The position numbers and the translations under genes were made by a program. Source: Psychroserpens damuponensis (GTDB taxonomy: Bacteria > Bacteroidota > Bacteroidia > Flavobacteriales > Flavobacteriaceae). Taken from it: DNA of 64,000 nt. The stretch lies in assembly GCF_000826655.1 (NCBI RefSeq), contig NZ_JXJO01000010.1, positions 124,001 through 188,000 of the forward strand. The letters run 5' to 3'. The notes beneath the pieces were generated by a model that did no database searches, had not been told where the DNA came from, and saw only the letters and a list, made by a program, of their open reading frames with translations. Shown here piece by piece: positions 1,498-51,842 of the stretch; position 1 is the first letter of the stretch; every line of letters starts with the position of its first letter.

Positions 1498-1560
1498 GAA
1501 AATATCATTTTATGTTAAAATCCCTTATATTTAAATTTAATCCCTGATTTTAATAGCAAC

Positions 1561-2196
1561 ATGTCAACGTCAATCATTATAGCAGATGATCATCCACTTA
1601 TTTTAAAAGGACTCAAAGATTTTTTAGTAGAAAAAGAATTTAATGTTATTGCTAGTGCAAAAAATGGCAAAGAGGCTTTAACTCTCATCAATGCTCATAA
1701 ACCAGATATTGCCATATTAGATATACAAATGCCTATCCTTACTGGATTGCAAGTGGCAGAGAAATGTAAAGAAGCCAATCTAGATACTAAAATTATTATA
1801 ATCACTTTTGAGAAAAGTGAAGCTATTTATAATAAGGCAAAATCGTTAGATATATATGGTTACATTTTAAAAGAGTTTGCTATTGAGGAACTAGAATACT
1901 GTATTTCTTGTGTTTTAAGAGAATACCATTATTTTAGTCCGGAGCTCATAGAATATATAGAAATCAAGAAAATCCCTGAGGCACTAAAAACCTTAACAGA
2001 TACCGAAATAAAAGTACTTAAACGCATTGCTGATAATAAAACGGCTAAAGAAATTGCTAATGATTTGTCCATTTCTGATAGAACCGTTGAAAAACACAAA
2101 AGTAATATACGAACTAAGCTCAAATTAGAATCTAAGGCCAATAGTATCGTATTGTATGCTAAAGCTCATGAAGAATTTTTAAATAAGTATGACTAG
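1561..2196 (+). CDS. Response regulator, NarL/LuxR family (orphan)
   Basis: The 211-residue protein has a receiver domain (residues 1-125) with the acidic pair D9-D10, phospho-acceptor D54 in AILDIQMP and lysine K104. A LuxR-type HTH follows at about 145-195 (LTDTEIKVLKRIADNKTAKEIA). It should bind DNA as a phosphorylated dimer. No histidine kinase gene is near. The tandem small-RNA units with palindromic operators start about 150 bp downstream, so this regulator is a natural candidate to control them; that link is inference. Confidence 0.92.
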   Translation: MSTSIIIADDHPLILKGLKDFLVEKEFNVIASAKNGKEALTLINAHKPDIAILDIQMPILTGLQVAEKCKEANLDTKIIIITFEKSEAIYNKAKSLDIYGYILKEFAIEELEYCISCVLREYHYFSPELIEYIEIKKIPEALKTLTDTEIKVLKRIADNKTAKEIANDLSISDRTVEKHKSNIRTKLKLESKANSIVLYAKAHEEFLNKYD

Positions 2197-2349
2197 AAGA
2201 TCATTGCGAGATAAACAAAATGTACTTTATTAAACGTATTACTCTACTTTGAGTACACAAAGTTGTCTACCTTTCATCAATATATTTATAAAAAAATTAG
2301 AGTATTAATGTCTAGGTTATTAGTAATTTCTGCGTTTTTTATTAAAAAC

Positions 2350-2363
2350 AGGTAAATATACCT
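2350..2363. promoter_or_regulatory. Imperfect palindromic operator of small-RNA unit A
   Basis: The sequence aggtaaatatacct has 5-base arms (aggta/tacct). It sits directly before TATTG, where the likely -33 TTG falls at 2365-2367, the same relative place as the perfect palindromes of units B and C. Confidence 0.45.
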
Positions 2364-2399
2364 ATTGTCAATATGAATAGAATTGAAGACATTTACACC

Positions 2400-2466
2400 G
2401 TTATTAATTTCTTAAGGGAGAATTTAATTTATAAGAAACTCTAGATCTTAAAGGTCTAGAGTTTTT
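2400..2466 (+). ncRNA. Small RNA unit A
   Basis: A predicted RNA of about 67 nt. It begins near gttattaa, eight bases after a TTTA box at 2392 that is spaced from the TTG at 2365 exactly as in unit B. The RNA carries a purine-rich ttaagggag segment and a possible ttctta/taagaa stem, and ends in a strong terminator. There is no open frame. It resembles units B and C in plan and in its first bases, which suggests paralogy. Confidence 0.5.
2439..2466 (+). terminator. Terminator of unit A
   Basis: A 10-bp stem (2439-2448 with 2452-2461) is followed by five T. One pair is T-G, a wobble in plus-strand RNA but a mismatch on the other strand, which supports plus-strand transcription. Confidence 0.75.
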
Positions 2467-2476
2467 CATATAAATC

Positions 2477-2526
2477 ATAAAACTTTAACAGTTTAAAATC
2501 AAAATATACGTAGAACTACGTATTGT
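2477..2526. repeat. 50-bp direct repeat, copy 1 (unit B promoter)
   Basis: Identical to 2634-2683 except for one base (C2483/T2640). It includes the perfect palindrome atacgtagaactacgtat (2506-2523; 8-bp arms, 2-bp centre) and ends at the TTG of the presumed -33 box. Confidence 0.9.
2506..2523. promoter_or_regulatory. Perfect 18-bp palindromic operator of unit B
   Basis: The sequence atacgtagaactacgtat has 8-base arms and abuts the -33 TTG (2523-2525). A TTTG core follows at 2550-2553. This position suits an activator that contacts RNA polymerase, such as a LuxR-family dimer. Confidence 0.6.
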
Positions 2527-2557
2527 TTGGTCATGATATAATACCGAAGTTTGCATT

Positions 2558-2622
2558 GCTATTAATCAATTTCCTTTTTACAAAGGATTAAAGCTCTAAG
2601 CCATATGGTTTAGAGCTTTTTT
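2558..2622 (+). ncRNA. Small RNA unit B
   Basis: A predicted RNA of about 65 nt that starts near gctattaa, eight bases after the start of the TTTG core. It contains a small hairpin (tccttt/aaagga) that encloses an AAAGGA segment, then the terminator. There is no coding potential. Start, length and layout match unit A. Confidence 0.55.
2590..2622 (+). terminator. Terminator of unit B
   Basis: A stem of about 14 bp (from 2590 to 2619) encloses a short loop and runs into T-rich sequence. A G-T pair is tolerated only in plus-strand RNA. Confidence 0.8.
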
Positions 2623-2633
2623 GTGTTTAAAAA

Positions 2634-2683
2634 ATAAAATTTTAACAGTTTAAAATCAAAATATACGTAGAACTACGTATTGT
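2634..2683. repeat. 50-bp direct repeat, copy 2 (unit C promoter)
   Basis: This is the second copy of the 2477-2526 repeat, exactly 157 bp away, with the palindrome at 2663-2680. The TTTG core at 2707-2710 keeps the same 157-bp offset, so the whole promoter was duplicated. Confidence 0.9.
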
Positions 2684-2716
2684 ATGACGTTGCTTTAATG
2701 ACGTACTTTGTACAAG

Positions 2717-2810
2717 AGTTATTAAGTTTAAAGGGATTTACTTTAAAGTAACTCTATTAATTAATTAGGGTATAAGGCTCTGGGACTCTTCATAATCCCA
2801 GAGTTTTATT
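2717..2810 (+). ncRNA. Small RNA unit C
   Basis: A predicted RNA of about 90 nt that starts near gttattaa. It has a 7-bp hairpin (tttaaag/ctttaaa) presenting a GGGATTTA-containing loop and a terminator with an 8-bp stem. It is longer than units A and B. Its terminator lies only about 33 bases before the ATG of a small membrane peptide, so it could instead be an attenuated leader of that gene. Confidence 0.5.
2778..2810 (+). terminator. Terminator of unit C
   Basis: The stem ctctggga/tcccagag (2778-2785 with 2796-2803) is followed by ttttatt. Confidence 0.75.
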
Positions 2811-2843
2811 TAAACAAAAACGTATAATTTAAAACGTACAAAA

Positions 2844-2954
2844 ATGGAAACGATGAAAAACAAACAAAGTCTTACCAATAGAATATTTATTGCTGGCTTA
2901 ATCTTTAGTGCCATTTTAATCATATCAATTAATATTCTCGTAAATTTTTTTTAG
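2844..2954 (+). CDS. 36-residue single-span membrane peptide
   Basis: The frame encodes METMKNKQSLTNRIFIAGL and continues with about twenty hydrophobic residues to INILVNFF, then TAG. A short basic head followed by one membrane segment is typical of small regulatory membrane proteins. The ATG at 2853 is an alternative start. A strong terminator lies 30 bp downstream. No -7 box is obvious after the unit C terminator, so read-through from unit C is possible. No family is recognised. Confidence 0.5.
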   Translation: METMKNKQSLTNRIFIAGLIFSAILIISINILVNFF

Positions 2955-2983
2955 TTAGTTATTAGTTATTTTTTATTAGGGAG

Positions 2984-3019
2984 AAAAAGCGCAACACTAT
3001 TTATGGGTTGCGCTTTTTT
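2984..3019 (+). terminator. Terminator after the small membrane peptide
   Basis: The stem aaaaagcgcaac/gttgcgcttttt encloses a loop of about 11 bases and continues into a T tract. Confidence 0.8.
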
Positions 3020-3097
3020 AAAAAAGAAAGACCGCTTACTAAGTAAGCAGTCTCTCAATAAACTTAAATTAAATAACCGTTCAACTTTATCTAATTT
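3020..3097 (-). ncRNA. Possible minus-strand small RNA
   Basis: On the minus strand an exact -7 box TAAATTTG (3104-3111) is followed by about 75 bases without a gene, then a hairpin (3029-3053) and a T-rich tail. The hairpin has an A-C mismatch on the plus strand that becomes a G-U pair on the minus strand, which supports this orientation. No clear -33 TTG is present. It could also be only a leader or terminator remnant. Confidence 0.35.
3058..3097. repeat. Repeat of about 40 bp, copy 1
   Basis: The block starts aaacttaaatta, continues taaccgttcaac and ends tctaatt. It recurs with small gaps at 3848-3880. Both copies lie upstream of genes for exported proteins (3204 and 3890). Confidence 0.7.
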
Positions 3098-3203
3098 AGA
3101 CTTCAAATTTACAAAATAGTTACCTAAGCATAACTTTGATTACGGTTTAAACGTAATATTATATGTAATTTTATTATAGCTTTAAAGAAAAAAACATAGC
3201 CTT

Positions 3204-3773
3204 ATGAAATCACTTTTAAAAACAAAACTTAACCAATCAGTAATATTTCTTTTCTTCATTTGTTTATTTACAGCCTGTAAAAATGATGATGACAATCCAC
3301 CACAAAACCCAATAGACCAATTGCCACCTATGACACAAACGGGAGAGCAAACATTTGGTTGCCTTATTAATGGAGAACCTTTTATACCGCCAAGTTTTGG
3401 CAGTAATGCTCCTAATGCTTTTTATCAATTTGTAGATGGCGCTTACACACTTGGGATTTCTGCAAGAAATAATAGCTCAATTGGTTTACAGTCGATAATA
3501 ATTGGTGGAATCGATATTGTAAATATTAATGAAATCACCTATGATTTGGAATCATTCTCAATTGGTAATCTTTATGGCTTATATGATTTGGTTTTGGATG
3601 AGAATTCAGAAACATATTACACTAATGAAAATTATCCAGGAACATTAACAATTACAAATTTTGACAATCAAAATTTTATTATATCAGGGACATTTGAATT
3701 TATAGTTTTAGATGATGATGGCAACGAAATTAATATCACAGACGGTAGATTCGATTTAAACTTCACTAATTAA
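3204..3773 (+). CDS. Lipoprotein, DUF6252-like
   Basis: The 189-residue protein has a lipoprotein signal peptide ending in the lipobox LFTAC, so Cys25 should be lipidated. A negatively charged stretch (KNDDDNPP) follows, which resembles a lipoprotein export signal for the cell surface in Bacteroidota. The mature part begins TFGCLINGEPFIPP, a pattern typical of DUF6252 proteins, and is predicted to be beta-rich. No enzymatic motif is seen. The family assignment is from memory of this motif. Confidence 0.65.
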   Translation: MKSLLKTKLNQSVIFLFFICLFTACKNDDDNPPQNPIDQLPPMTQTGEQTFGCLINGEPFIPPSFGSNAPNAFYQFVDGAYTLGISARNNSSIGLQSIIIGGIDIVNINEITYDLESFSIGNLYGLYDLVLDENSETYYTNENYPGTLTITNFDNQNFIISGTFEFIVLDDDGNEINITDGRFDLNFTN

Positions 3774-3847
3774 TCCTAAAAACAATCCAAAATGACTTAG
3801 CTTAAAAAATAACAAAAGACAATCTATTTTATAAACTCTCTTCTAAC

Positions 3848-3880
3848 AAACTTAAATTATTAACCGTTCAACATCTAATT
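3848..3880. repeat. Repeat of about 40 bp, copy 2
   Basis: Second copy of the 3058-3097 block. It ends only ten bases before the ATG at 3890, so here it forms part of the leader of the hydrolase gene. Confidence 0.7.
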
Positions 3881-3889
3881 CAACTATTT

Positions 3890-6800
3890 ATGAAAATCCT
3901 TAAACACACATTAAAAAGCCTTTTTGGTTTGGTATTATTATTTTTCACTACTTCAACCAAAGCTCAAACCATCAATACCACATTAGCTCAAGATATCAAT
4001 AACGTATTTAGCCTTTTAGAAAAAAATCGAATACCTCACAACATCCTTTTAGATTATGGTTTTGACCGTATTGATGTGGCAAGTTTTGATGGCGTACTAC
4101 GTACAGATAACTATATAGGTTTAGAACGCTATGGTCAAATTTATAATGCTTTGGTATCTTCTGCAACAGCAGTAAATGTTAGTGGATTTGAACCTCCAAG
4201 TCAAGAACTTACAGAGTGGCAAACTTTACAAAAACAAAAAAATGACTTAGCTAAAATGAGTAATAAGGCATCTGTGATACTTAATGGGTTGCTCTACAAA
4301 TATTCTAAAATTAACTCTAATGCGCTTGCAAATAACAAAATACAAGTCATTAATGGCAAGTATGATGATAAATACAAAAGAGGTGCTTGGCAAAATCCTT
4401 ATGATGTACATACAGCATTTGCTATAAGTGCTCCCATATTATATATCAACAAACCGCAAGTAGAAGTATCTTTACCTGCCACACTTTGGCATAGCAATAC
4501 TACAATTACTAATCTAGATATAGATTTTGGTGATGGTAATGGGTACAAAAGTATTTTAAATAACACCACTGCGAATACAACATATACTAATATTGGAACT
4601 TATGATTGGACTTATCGTGTACAATTAAGTAATGGACAATATAAATATTGTCGACAAAAAGTTAAGGTAACTCAAGTAGATAATAGTGCTCAGGCTAGAA
4701 ATCCTGCTTGTGGCCAATTGGATATTGAAGAAATTACAGCATCAAAATCTTACCAAGGGGTATTTGGTACAGCGACTTTACAGATTGCTTATGGTTCTGC
4801 AGATTGTCAATTGCGTAATCCATTGATTATTGCAGAAGGTTTAGATACGGGATTATTGGCGCAGGCAGGAAGTATTGGTGATAGTGATTATAATTCTTTT
4901 AGATTCTCAGTGTTAGCATCTCAAAGTCCAGATTTACAAGATTTAATAACGAACAATACAGCAATTGATTACGACATAGTATACGTCAACTGGGATAACG
5001 GTACAGATTTTATTCAACGTAACGCTTTTGTTTTAGAAGCAGTTATAGATTGGGTTAATACTAATAAAACAGGTAATGCACAAAATGTTGTACTCGGTCA
5101 AAGTATGGGCGGTTTAATTGCACGCTATGCCTTGCGTGATATGGAGAATAATAGTGAAGATCACGACACTAATTTATATATAAGTCATGATGCTCCTCAT
5201 CAAGGTGCGCATTTACCTCCTGGTATATTGCACATGGGAAGACATGTTGCGCATGAGTTTTTACAAACACCATTGGGTAATATTAATATACCCGTAGAAG
5301 GCGTTGGTAATTTAGGTCTAGCTACTATCAATGATTTGTTAGACGCACCAGCTATCAATCAAATGTTAATTAGTGGAGTTAATAGCAGTAGTAATAGAGA
5401 TGACACTGTGCATACCAATTGGCAAACAGAGCTTAATACCATGGGATATCCTCAGCAAACAAGAAATATAGCACTAAGTAATGCTAGCCACTGTGCAGAG
5501 CCACAAGGCTTAATTTCTAATCAAAGCTTACTTACAGTGACAGGAAATGGAGGTACAAGTGATTTTACAAGTTTAGTTGAGTTTTTCTTATTTCTTGGAC
5601 CTTTAGTCGGTGACTTTTTAAATGATACACCTACTTTTTTATTAGGGTTTCTTCCTGGTAACACATTACTTGACGCAGAGTTTAGGGTAAATGCTTTTCC
5701 ATCTTCTGGCATTTCTCGTGTATATAAGGGTAGATTAACGTACAAAAAAACGCTGTTATGGTTAGTCCCAATTACAAGAACAATTTTTGATGAATCTAAA
5801 AACTCTCAACCTGGAGATCTGTTTTTAGATAATTTTCCTGGAGGTGCTAATCCAAGTTCAGTAATTTTTAATGCTAGTGATTTTGAAGATAATTTCTTTT
5901 TTAATTATGGTTTTAATTTAGATGTTAATTTAGATTTTGATTTCATACCTGTGACTAGTGCATTAGATGTAGGTAGCGGAAATACTACTTTGACTAATGC
6001 TGATTATTTTAGAATTTACACATCTGCAAATCCTCCAACGGGTTCAAAAGCAATACCGTTTGACAGTTTTAGTACATCGTTAAATAACACAAGTACTAAC
6101 GAACCACATATTACATTTAATAGAAGAAATGGAGATTGGTTAGCAGCAGAATTAGATGTAGCAATAGCTGATTTTGATTTTGATTGCTCCTTTGTTTGTG
6201 ATGAGAACGCAATCTCAGGTTCAGGATTAATTTGCAATACTGCCACCTACTCAATTAACAGTACAGATATAACCAATATAGATTGGGATATCACACCTGT
6301 AAATGCTGGTACTATAACAGAGAATATTAATGATGTATCGCAGATTACAATCACTAGAGCTTTTGGATACAGTGGTACTGTTACTTTGAGTGCCTCAGTA
6401 GATACAAATCGTTGTGGTAATGATATTCCCTTAAGTAAAACTATACACTTTGGTCGTCCAACTGCTAATGGTTCAGTTCTTATTTTTGGTGATGCCGATT
6501 TAAATCCAGGACCAACTGACTCTGCGGTATTTACCGTAAATACAAATAATATGCAAGCTTGGAGTTCTATTGATTGGGTAATCTATAGTGGTTCTTACCC
6601 AAATGCTTCAATAAATTTTAATATTCAATCTACTGGCGGAAGTAATAAAACCGTTGTAGTTACAGCAGATGCATCAACACCAGAGGGTAGTTACTATATA
6701 CAGAGTAGAATTACAAACAGTTGTGGTTATTATCCTGTTGATAGAGTTTTTTATGTTAATGAAGCTGGTGATCCACAATTTTATCCACGAATGTCAAATA

Positions 6801-7051
6801 GCTATAGCGTTTATCCAAATCCATCAAAAGACATCGTAAACATTACTTCGATTAGCGACGAGAAAGAACAAACCAAAAAAGACACTAAAGTCTCTGGAGA
6901 ATTATTTGATGTTCTTGGGAAATCAAAACTAAAAGTTGATATGCAACACAATAAAGCTCAATTTTCAGTAGCAAGATTAAACCCTGGGGTATATGTGCTC
7001 AAAATTTATTTAGGAGAGCATATTGAAACACATCAGGTGTTAGTTAAATAA
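3890..7051 (+). CDS. T9SS-exported alpha/beta hydrolase (lipase/esterase-like)
   Basis: The 1053-residue protein starts with a signal peptide ending near TKAQT. A PKD-like segment (about residues 200-260) precedes an alpha/beta hydrolase core with the nucleophile motif GQSMGG (serine near 404) and a preceding YVNWDNG segment. Beta-rich repeats and a C-terminal T9SS sorting domain (SVYPNPSKD... to QVLVK) follow. It should cross the outer membrane by type IX secretion and be released or anchored. The substrate is unknown; ester or lipid hydrolysis fits the motif. Confidence 0.8.
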   Translation: MKILKHTLKSLFGLVLLFFTTSTKAQTINTTLAQDINNVFSLLEKNRIPHNILLDYGFDRIDVASFDGVLRTDNYIGLERYGQIYNALVSSATAVNVSGFEPPSQELTEWQTLQKQKNDLAKMSNKASVILNGLLYKYSKINSNALANNKIQVINGKYDDKYKRGAWQNPYDVHTAFAISAPILYINKPQVEVSLPATLWHSNTTITNLDIDFGDGNGYKSILNNTTANTTYTNIGTYDWTYRVQLSNGQYKYCRQKVKVTQVDNSAQARNPACGQLDIEEITASKSYQGVFGTATLQIAYGSADCQLRNPLIIAEGLDTGLLAQAGSIGDSDYNSFRFSVLASQSPDLQDLITNNTAIDYDIVYVNWDNGTDFIQRNAFVLEAVIDWVNTNKTGNAQNVVLGQSMGGLIARYALRDMENNSEDHDTNLYISHDAPHQGAHLPPGILHMGRHVAHEFLQTPLGNINIPVEGVGNLGLATINDLLDAPAINQMLISGVNSSSNRDDTVHTNWQTELNTMGYPQQTRNIALSNASHCAEPQGLISNQSLLTVTGNGGTSDFTSLVEFFLFLGPLVGDFLNDTPTFLLGFLPGNTLLDAEFRVNAFPSSGISRVYKGRLTYKKTLLWLVPITRTIFDESKNSQPGDLFLDNFPGGANPSSVIFNASDFEDNFFFNYGFNLDVNLDFDFIPVTSALDVGSGNTTLTNADYFRIYTSANPPTGSKAIPFDSFSTSLNNTSTNEPHITFNRRNGDWLAAELDVAIADFDFDCSFVCDENAISGSGLICNTATYSINSTDITNIDWDITPVNAGTITENINDVSQITITRAFGYSGTVTLSASVDTNRCGNDIPLSKTIHFGRPTANGSVLIFGDADLNPGPTDSAVFTVNTNNMQAWSSIDWVIYSGSYPNASINFNIQSTGGSNKTVVVTADASTPEGSYYIQSRITNSCGYYPVDRVFYVNEAGDPQFYPRMSNSYSVYPNPSKDIVNITSISDEKEQTKKDTKVSGELFDVLGKSKLKVDMQHNKAQFSVARLNPGVYVLKIYLGEHIETHQVLVK

Positions 7052-7137: not shown

Positions 7138-8412
7138 TTACATTTCTAATGCTCTCTTCACGTCGTTATCCATTAATAACTCTATTGGATTTTCTAAAGC
7201 CTCTTTAACTGCAACTAAGAAACCTACAGACTCTTTACCATCAATAATTCTATGATCGTAAGATAAAGCGACGTACATGATTGGTCTAATTTCTACATGA
7301 CCATCAATGGCTACTGGACGCTCTACAATATTGTGCATCCCTAAGATTCCACTTTGTGGTGGATTAATAATAGGCGTTGATAACATACTACCAAAAACAC
7401 CACCATTTGTAATGGTAAAGGTTCCACCTGTCATTTCATCAACTGTGATATCACCATCTCTAGCTCTGAGTGCTAAACGTTTTACTTCAGATTCTACACC
7501 TCTAAACGTTAAGTTTTCGGCATTTCTAATGACTGGTACCATTAATCCTTTTGGTCCTGATACTGCTATAGAAATATCAACAAAATCATAAGTTAACATT
7601 TGTTTACCGTCAATCATAGAATTAACAGCAGGATACATTTGTAATGCTCTCACAACAGCTAAAGAAAAGAAACTCATAAACCCAAGACTTACACCATGCT
7701 TAGCTTTAAAGTCTTCTTTATACTCTTTACGCAACGCAAAAATTGGTGACATATCAACTTCATTGAATGTCGTTAACATTGCAGTTGTATTTTTTGCTTC
7801 AACCAAACGCTCTGCCACTTTACGACGTAACATTGACATTTTACTGTGTGAACTACTACGGTTTCCTCCTGTAGGAGTTCCCATAGAAGGTACAGCATTA
7901 ACCGCATCGTCTTTTGTAATACGACCATCTTTTCCTGAACCAGAAATTGATGAAGCATCCATACCTTTTTCTGCCAATACTTTTTTAGCTGCAGGACTTG
8001 CTACTCCAGAAGCATATGTTTTTTGCGCTGGATTAGGTGCTTTTTCGTGATTCTCTTTATTTGGTGTCGCTTTTTGATCTTTTGCTACATCTTTTTCAGC
8101 ATTAGAATTTCCACCTTCATCTCCACCGTTATATGTGCTAGGAGCATCTTTAGCTGCATCACTACTTGGTTTTTCTGCACTAGTATCAATTAAACACACT
8201 ACAGCTCCAACCTCTACTGCATCACCTTCTTCGGCTTTGAGTGTGATGGTTCCGCTTGCTTCAGCAGGTAATTCTAATGTAGCTTTATCACTATCAACCT
8301 CTGCGATGGCTTGATCTTTTTCAACATAATCTCCATCTGCAACTAACCATTCTGCAATTTCTACCTCTGTGATTGACTCTCCTGGTGAAGGAACTTTCAT
8401 TTCTAAAATCAT
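7138..8412 (-). CDS. sucB: 2-oxoglutarate dehydrogenase E2, dihydrolipoyl succinyltransferase
   Basis: The 424-residue protein has an N-terminal lipoyl domain with the lipoylated lysine K43 in [13 protein letters not shown]. An acidic, Ala/Pro-rich linker, a peripheral-subunit-binding domain (about 140-175) and the catalytic acyltransferase domain follow, ending with the active-site motif [11 protein letters not shown]. It transfers the succinyl group to CoA in the TCA cycle. It lies 60 bp downstream of sucA on the same strand, so the two should be an operon. The E3 subunit gene is not nearby. Confidence 0.96.
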
Positions 8413-51760: not shown

Positions 51761-51842
51761 GCTCAAGTGGTGGAATTGGTAGACACGTTGGATTCAAAAT
51801 CCAATGTCGCGAGACGTGTGGGTTCGATTCCCACCTTGAGTA
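51761..51842 (+). tRNA. tRNA-Leu (CAA anticodon)
   Basis: A class II tRNA with the long variable arm. The acceptor strand gctcaag pairs with cttgagt (one G-U), the D arm contains aattggtagac, the anticodon stem is ttgga/tccaa around loop ttcaaaa (anticodon CAA), and the T arm is gtggg/cccac around ttcgatt. CCA is not encoded. Its 3' end serves as the attachment site of the integrated element, and the insertion keeps the gene intact. Confidence 0.95.

Follow-up and report, generated by a model that had tools for sequence, protein, structure and literature searches.

What do short RNA units do when they lie in tandem directly behind the gene of a LuxR-type response regulator (RR)? The question is raised by the 3.9-Mb draft assembly of the marine bacterium Psychroserpens damuponensis, of which we analysed one stretch of 64,000 nucleotides (the window). 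Here an RR gene is followed by three tandem units, an ORF for a 36-aa peptide and a terminator (Table 1). A preliminary description, made from the sequence of the window alone, had proposed three units in a row, each with an operator, a TTG, a TTTG-like box, a short RNA and a terminator, and direct reading confirmed this plan. The link of the array to the RR directly upstream was absent from that description and is added here.

Table 1. Features of the RR locus and its array (positions in the window).
Feature	Position	Strand	Sequence or character	Basis
Putative sRNA target site in RR leader	1541-1557	+	TCCCT 1541-1545, TTAATAGC 1550-1557; RR start codon 1561	
RR gene	1561-2196	+	211 aa, REC + GerE/LuxR HTH; presumed array activator	Pfam
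Operator, unit 1	2349-2364	+	variant CAGGTAAATATACCTA	sequence reading
-7 element, unit 1	2392-2395	+	TTTA	sequence reading
Type A sRNA (predicted)	~2400-2466	+	single-stranded 5' part, hairpin with AGGGAGAAUU, terminator	folding, alignment, covariance model
Operator, unit 2	2507-2522	+	TACGTAGAACTACGTA	genome searches
-7 element, unit 2	2550-2553	+	TTTG	spacing search
Type B sRNA (predicted)	~2558-2622	+	GCUAUUAAUCAAUUUCCUUUU hairpin, terminator	folding, alignment
Operator, unit 3	2664-2679	+	TACGTAGAACTACGTA, identical to unit 2	genome searches
-7 element, unit 3	2707-2710	+	TTTG	spacing search
Type C RNA (predicted)	~2715-2811	+	two AGGG motifs, terminator-like stem, weak U-tract	folding, alignment
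36-aa single-TM peptide ORF	2844-2954	+	METMKNKQSLTNRIFIAGLIFSAILIISINILVNFF	sequence reading
Fourth motif and strong terminator, 3' of peptide ORF	2976-3018	+	TTAGGGAG	reading, folding
Putative operator at PAS-LuxR loci (other genomes)			TACTCAATTTGAGTA	

Layout of the array and its predicted transcripts

In all three units, the end of the operator lies 27 nt from the TTTR box with a TTG between them; the preliminary description had given the TTG-to-box spacing as 27 bases. The regions upstream of units 2 and 3 form a 92-nt repeat of 80% identity. The excerpt of PMC9723704 gives TAnnTTTG as the Bacteroidetes sigma-A promoter consensus. The array promoters are of a TTG/TTTR type; the TTTG-like box is present at its fixed distance, and the TA part of the consensus is often degenerate. 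According to the ORF list, 2197-3203 holds no plus-strand ORF of 40 aa or more. Unit 3 probably leads into the membrane-peptide ORF, and the type C RNA would be an sRNA and/or the leader of that ORF. The peptide has no Pfam match, and peptides judged by eye to resemble it occupy the same position in other genomes. Farther downstream, two genes (189 and 1053 aa, within 3204-7051) separate the array from a convergent gene at 7138-8412, dehydrogenase acyltransferase-like by reading, which in many relatives lies close behind the array. The window contains 10 matches to CTATTAATNA against 2.4 expected, and reading of its CTATTAAT places outside the array revealed no unit-like sequence.

The predicted RNAs (~65-97 nt) gave folding z scores of -4.26, -5.55 and -4.13 for units 1, 2 and 3 (folding of unit 3 began at 2717), with 0 of 200 shuffles as good in each case. 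The shared purine core and the strong terminators of the preliminary description each stood in part. AGGGA or AGGG is found in types A and C, in or beside the hairpin loop, and again behind the peptide, but unit 2 carries a CCUUU/AAAGG hairpin instead and has no AGGGA; the terminators of units 1 and 2 are complete, but the U-tract of unit 3 is weak.

To assess covariation, we aligned 22 of the 28 units of type A, 21 of the 22 of type B and 14 of the 20 of type C; near-identical and badly cut units and, for type C, five divergent ones had been omitted. Because short sequence patterns served to gather the units, the constancy of these patterns among the aligned sequences partly reflects how the units were chosen, especially in the initial 14 nt of type B. 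The 13-bp terminator of type A has nine doubly changed pairs among 22 sequences, and the 5' stem beside UAGGG has none. Doubly changed pairs number 5 of 13 in the type B terminator and 2 of 28 in type C. In a Flavobacteriaceae-wide set of 46 hand-picked sequences, the values are 11 of 13 for the terminator and 1 of 6 for the 5' stem.

Recurrence behind the response regulator and beyond it

Conservation in close relatives, on which the preliminary description had proposed to judge the units, is extensive. The operator TACGTANNNNTACGTA occurs at five places in the P. damuponensis genome with no control matches, and in 33 of the 57 genomes searched, this one included, where controls gave 0-3 matches per genome. 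The 16-mer CAGGTAAATATACCTA, exact or with one change, precedes a type A unit in G018, G004, G007, G010, G005, G014 and G011. When the operator was followed by 27 nt and TTTR, the search returned 89 matches, spread over 22 of 23 Psychroserpens genomes with P. damuponensis among them, and none in controls, although some of the 89 may not be promoters, being reverse readings over the RR stop codon or lacking the TTG. The same 22 genomes possess an RR ortholog at E <= 1.3e-83; the exception, G022, has no operator-spacing match and no RR ortholog, its best RR match being at 2.2e-17. Across 25 loci read, the order in most species is RR, types A, B and C, and then the peptide, with one to three type A copies except in G006, which has none; type B comes first in G016, and G003 and G021 depart from the usual order. 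Many species have their first operator overlapping the stop codon of the RR gene. Overall, conservation, fixed spacing and covarying terminators give good support to the earlier prediction of three plus-strand, operator-controlled sRNA units.

Pfam analysis of the RR identified Response_reg (E 8.4e-26) and GerE (E 2.1e-15) domains. Its named relatives, from 11 loci, comprise seven Psychroserpens records, Arcticiflavibacter, a Flavobacteriaceae MAG, Xanthomarina and Bizionia, and RR orthologs stand directly upstream of arrays in other genomes. A covariance search over Flavobacteriaceae, as suggested previously, extended this picture: model R1, built on the type A RNA of unit 1, gave 99 matches in 69 of 299 genomes and 57 of 236 genera. 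For seventy of these matches, in 55 genomes, an RR match stands 49-677 nt upstream on the same strand, and for 36 of the seventy the distance is at most 70 nt. The RR protein search detected 139 of the 299 genomes at E <= 1e-40, 122 of these at 1e-53 or better, and co-occurrence counts among the 299 were 59 for RR with R1, 10 for R1 alone and 63 for RR alone. R1 misses many units: when 20 loci with only the RR were read, unit-like sequences stood behind operators in 11, of which two are atypical, and were absent from nine. Model R3, under stricter filters, matched 5 of 395 genomes in a draw from the phylum and 7 of 296 in a draw from the order, and its only match beyond Flavobacteriaceae was weak (G037, E 8.6e-4). 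TACGTA sites directly 3' of the gene were seen for two of five more distant RR homologs read. Two RR paralogs (43-45% identical), at L101 and L102, have differently arranged TACGTA sites behind them, along with large proteins that look secreted.

Forty R1 loci were read, the second 20 being drawn from matches away from an RR. The first 20 comprised 17 with the RR, one contig start with operators and two behind a PAS-LuxR protein. Among the second 20, seven lie behind a PAS-LuxR protein, two behind a 221-aa protein (both in G027), three have TACGTA-type operators with no RR in the stretch, and one (L207) is RNA-like with no recognised operator. Five matches were rejected as apparently false on reading (L208, L210, L212, L219 and L220) and two are uncertain (L215 and L218). 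In all, 24 of the 29 R1 matches not behind an RR were read, the remaining five being in G241, G197, G106, G322 and G276.

The loci with other regulators retain the same RNA. All nine PAS-LuxR loci show a palindrome TACTCA..TGAGTA with a TTG, then TTTR after exactly 27 nt and, 4 nt further on, the same RNA body, present as a single unit, and no peptide was seen in the stretch read. The one PAS-LuxR protein tested against Pfam contains PAS_3 and GerE domains. In G027, the RNA units follow a 221-aa protein and sites resembling TTACGG-N4-CCGTAA; the protein looks REC-HTH-like by eye and gave no Response_reg match in Pfam. The RNA body is therefore common to these loci, while regulator and operator are exchanged, and the presence of this body behind PAS-LuxR genes with another operator makes further inputs and targets likely.

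The operator also stands before protein genes. With its exact spacing it precedes lipoprotein-like genes in G000, G016 and G015 (L008:2730-4367 (+), L143 and L145), the frame of the G016 gene being interrupted near its start; these genes are possible further members of the regulon. In single species (L144, L146, L153 and L154), operator and spacing precede genes for a SIR2-TPR protein, a DNA/RNA non-specific endonuclease, an animal-haem-peroxidase-like protein (lacking the TTG) and a protein with a ricin-B-type lectin match below the cut-off, all of which look antagonism- or defence-like. At L009 (operator 2841-2856, minus strand), the downstream gene has an in-frame TAA just past the signal peptide and is either a pseudogene or the product of a sequencing error. 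At L010 (operator 3010, minus strand), the mRNA leader TTTGTCTTGCTATTAATCAATTTTT before the ATG resembles the sRNA 5' end, although the operator does not stand at the array spacing.

Complementarity to the regulator's own leader

Which messages might these RNAs act on? Tentative suggestions had been that their purine cores act through the anti-Shine-Dalgarno sequence or as sponges. Pairing of AGGGAG with the 16S tail, done by hand, gave at most 6 bp, one of them a wobble, and was rejected. The conserved RNA blocks AGGGA and GCUAUUA are instead the reverse complements of TCCCT and TAATAGC, two motifs of the RR leader.

Both motifs are strongly over-represented there. When 65 leaders from loci with the array were set against dinucleotide shuffles, with the Psychroserpens clade weighted as one genome, TCCCT ranked first of 588 5-mers (42 of 65 leaders) and TAATAGC first of 1754 7-mers (31 of 65). 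Both still rank first with a weight of one per genus group (37 groups), at 21.3 versus 3.05 expected for TCCCT and 17.0 versus 0.67 for TAATAGC. Within control stretches of the RR gene, TCCCT is not above chance; TAATAGC reaches 6.3 versus 0.21 expected in the first 60 nt of the gene, where it ranks 54th, and is absent at +300. TCCCT or TAATAG occurs in 22 of 23 leaders inside the Psychroserpens clade and in 30 of 42 outside it. At array-less loci, TCCCT or TTAATAG was found in 0 of 18 leaders versus 52 of 67 array-bearing ones, a contrast that is confounded because the RR there closely follows another ORF and has no leader of its own.

Predicted duplex energies, calculated irrespective of site accessibility, point to the same region. 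The comparison covered 51 starts, namely 50 of the window's 57 ORFs (seven overlapping ones were omitted) and the peptide. The RR start ranks first for type A (-19.2 versus -13.2 kcal/mol for the next) and for type C (-22.4 versus -19.5 kcal/mol), and fourth for type B. Over 22 genomes each, duplexes with the RR start have modest mean z scores of -1.08 (type A) and -1.01 (type B). At the peptide start, type A shows no pairing signal (mean z 0.41, n=16), and type B shows some (mean z -1.22, n=17).

In genomes whose RNA loop reads GAGAG, the leaders have TCCCT in 0 of 9 cases versus 42 of 56, and CTCTC is more frequent, in 4 of 9 versus 2 of 56. The set was edited by hand on reading (G135 out, G203 in), the unedited counts being 1 of 9 versus 41 of 56 for TCCCT and 3 of 9 versus 3 of 56 for CTCTC, and the nine genomes may be one clade.

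Other observations set bounds on this correspondence. Where a leader holds both TCCCT and TAATAG, TCCCT comes first in 15 and the order is reversed in eight, so that no single continuous antiparallel duplex is possible for the reversed order. Neither TTAATAG nor TCCCT is present in 15 of 67 array-bearing leaders. TCCCT and TAATAG are likewise absent from the 110-nt leaders of all nine PAS-LuxR loci and from the 150-nt leaders of both G027 loci, and feedback on those regulators was accordingly rejected. Furthermore, G199 and G263 carry the RNA behind PAS-LuxR and have no RR match at E <= 1e-40, so feedback on the RR is not its sole function.

A probable feedback circuit and its alternatives

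We consider it probable that the RR activates sRNAs which repress its own translation. The active LuxR-type RR would bind palindromic TACGTA-type operators immediately before each promoter's TTG, a location that fits a class II activator position, and would thereby turn on, rather than repress, the tandem sRNAs together with the small membrane peptide. In the cell, the sRNA 5' end (GCUAUUAA) and the loop AGGGA would pair with UUAAUAGC and UCCCU just before the RR start codon, and this pairing would presumably block RR translation and close a negative feedback loop. The peptide may be an extra output at the membrane. Since the RNAs match the start region of the RR message, they probably switch their own activator off. 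This account is incomplete, given the reversed order in 8 of 23 leaders, the 15 of 67 leaders with neither motif and the two genomes with no RR match at E <= 1e-40; it is likely that there are further targets or that two sRNA molecules act on one leader.

The nearest parallel lies in Vibrio, where, in the excerpt of PMC4211561, the response regulator LuxO activates several related Qrr sRNAs, encoded at distal sites, that pair with and reduce its own mRNA. The likeness is one of mechanism, not homology: here, too, related RR-linked sRNAs are complementary to the start region of that RR's mRNA. In contrast to Qrr, the array is tandem and sits behind a LuxR-type regulator. LuxO is an NtrC-type sigma54 activator and the Qrr RNAs depend on Hfq, whereas the RR of this locus combines REC and GerE domains and its promoters are of the sigma-A-like TTG/TTTR type. 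We know of no Hfq in the phylum Bacteroidota, and of few sRNA circuits there. Tandem sRNAs with common ends are described in the same excerpt for OmrA/OmrB of E. coli and other siblings (PMC4211561). The present units differ in having no Rfam match and in belonging to another phylum. OmrA and OmrB are controlled by OmpR and feed back on ompR.

Comparison with Rfam 15, also foreseen in the preliminary description, placed the units in no family: at the gathering score, none was matched, the window yielding one tRNA only (at 51761) and 20 related loci three tRNAs only. A permissive search of the window gave sub-threshold matches only. Among these, FopS (RF04319) reached 19.8 bits where its gathering score is 56, and this match (minus strand, 3020-3075) does not fall in any of the three units; to judge from its name, this family of Bacteroidetes resembles the array in comprising paralogous sRNAs in the phylum. 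In Flavobacterium psychrophilum, Rfp18 is a conserved flavobacterial sRNA for which a third stem-loop is described and metalloprotease targets are predicted (excerpt of PMC9723704). In these described features it differs from the array RNAs, and the excerpt mentions no linked regulator. In the open-licence literature, the scope of our search, we found no description of this array.

A second plan for a LuxR-type regulator that drives several sRNAs is that of GacA, which controls multiple GGA-bearing RNAs (RsmX/Y/Z); RsmY/Z and CsrB titrate a CsrA-type protein. The array RNAs could accordingly be decoys for a GGGA- or UAGGG-binding protein, with the loops exposing the motif and tandem copies raising the dose, and the AGGG of types A and C, like that 3' of the peptide, would suit this role. 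Two protein families were searched at E <= 0.001 in the P. damuponensis genome, and neither CsrA/RsmA (0 matches; 3 of 14 control genomes were positive) nor RRM_1 proteins were detected, which sets the locus apart from the GacA/Rsm system. A decoy role, moreover, leaves the conserved 5' GCUAUUAA unexplained, does not extend to type B, which lacks the motif, and would make the RR-leader complementarity a coincidence. We regard it, and with it the earlier sponge proposal, as unlikely.

Loci that lack the RNAs bear on another alternative. At nine of them (G121, G200, G277, G107, G122, G072, G117, G187 and G120), a TACGT-containing palindrome-like site and a promoter precede the peptide ORF, most with a short leader or none. 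The units might thus be chiefly leaders or attenuators of a small-peptide transcript, duplicated relics with no function in trans, and type C, with its weak U-tract, does run into the peptide ORF. Types A and B, however, have promoters of their own and complete covarying terminators, and behind PAS-LuxR genes the RNA stands as a single unit with no peptide in the stretch read; this reading therefore appears quite improbable. Least likely of all is that the leader motifs are an antisense or DNA-level element rather than a site of sRNA pairing, since the reverse strand of the RR leader, which does read like the sRNA 5' part (CTATTAAT..AGGGA), has no conserved promoter and no terminator hairpin in the leaders read by eye.

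To return to sRNA feedback on the RR, its distribution suggests how it might have arisen. In RNA-less loci the RR follows a long ORF, which in both cases tested encodes a TPR-HisKA_3-HATPase kinase. A kinase-end pattern was matched upstream in 14 of 18 array-less loci (four had no assignment), and an aspartyl-protease end in 59 of 67 array-bearing loci (eight had none; G192, counted in the 67, is intermediate by eye). The array is thus found mostly where the RR gene is not adjacent to the kinase gene, and sRNA feedback may therefore have replaced operon coupling. The broader proposal, which we hold to be about evenly balanced, is that the RNAs form a Flavobacteriaceae sRNA family outside Rfam that serves as a plug-in feedback device: one RNA body would be coupled to at least two and probably three regulators by different operators, with identical promoter spacing for two of them, and would converge on one RR leader, and the device may have taken the place of operon coupling. 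A single 1.5-kb locus, found again in many genera, contains the regulator, the operators, the sRNAs and a predicted target, and it opens to direct test both the action of base-pairing sRNAs in these bacteria and the rewiring of a kinase-regulator pair via RNA.
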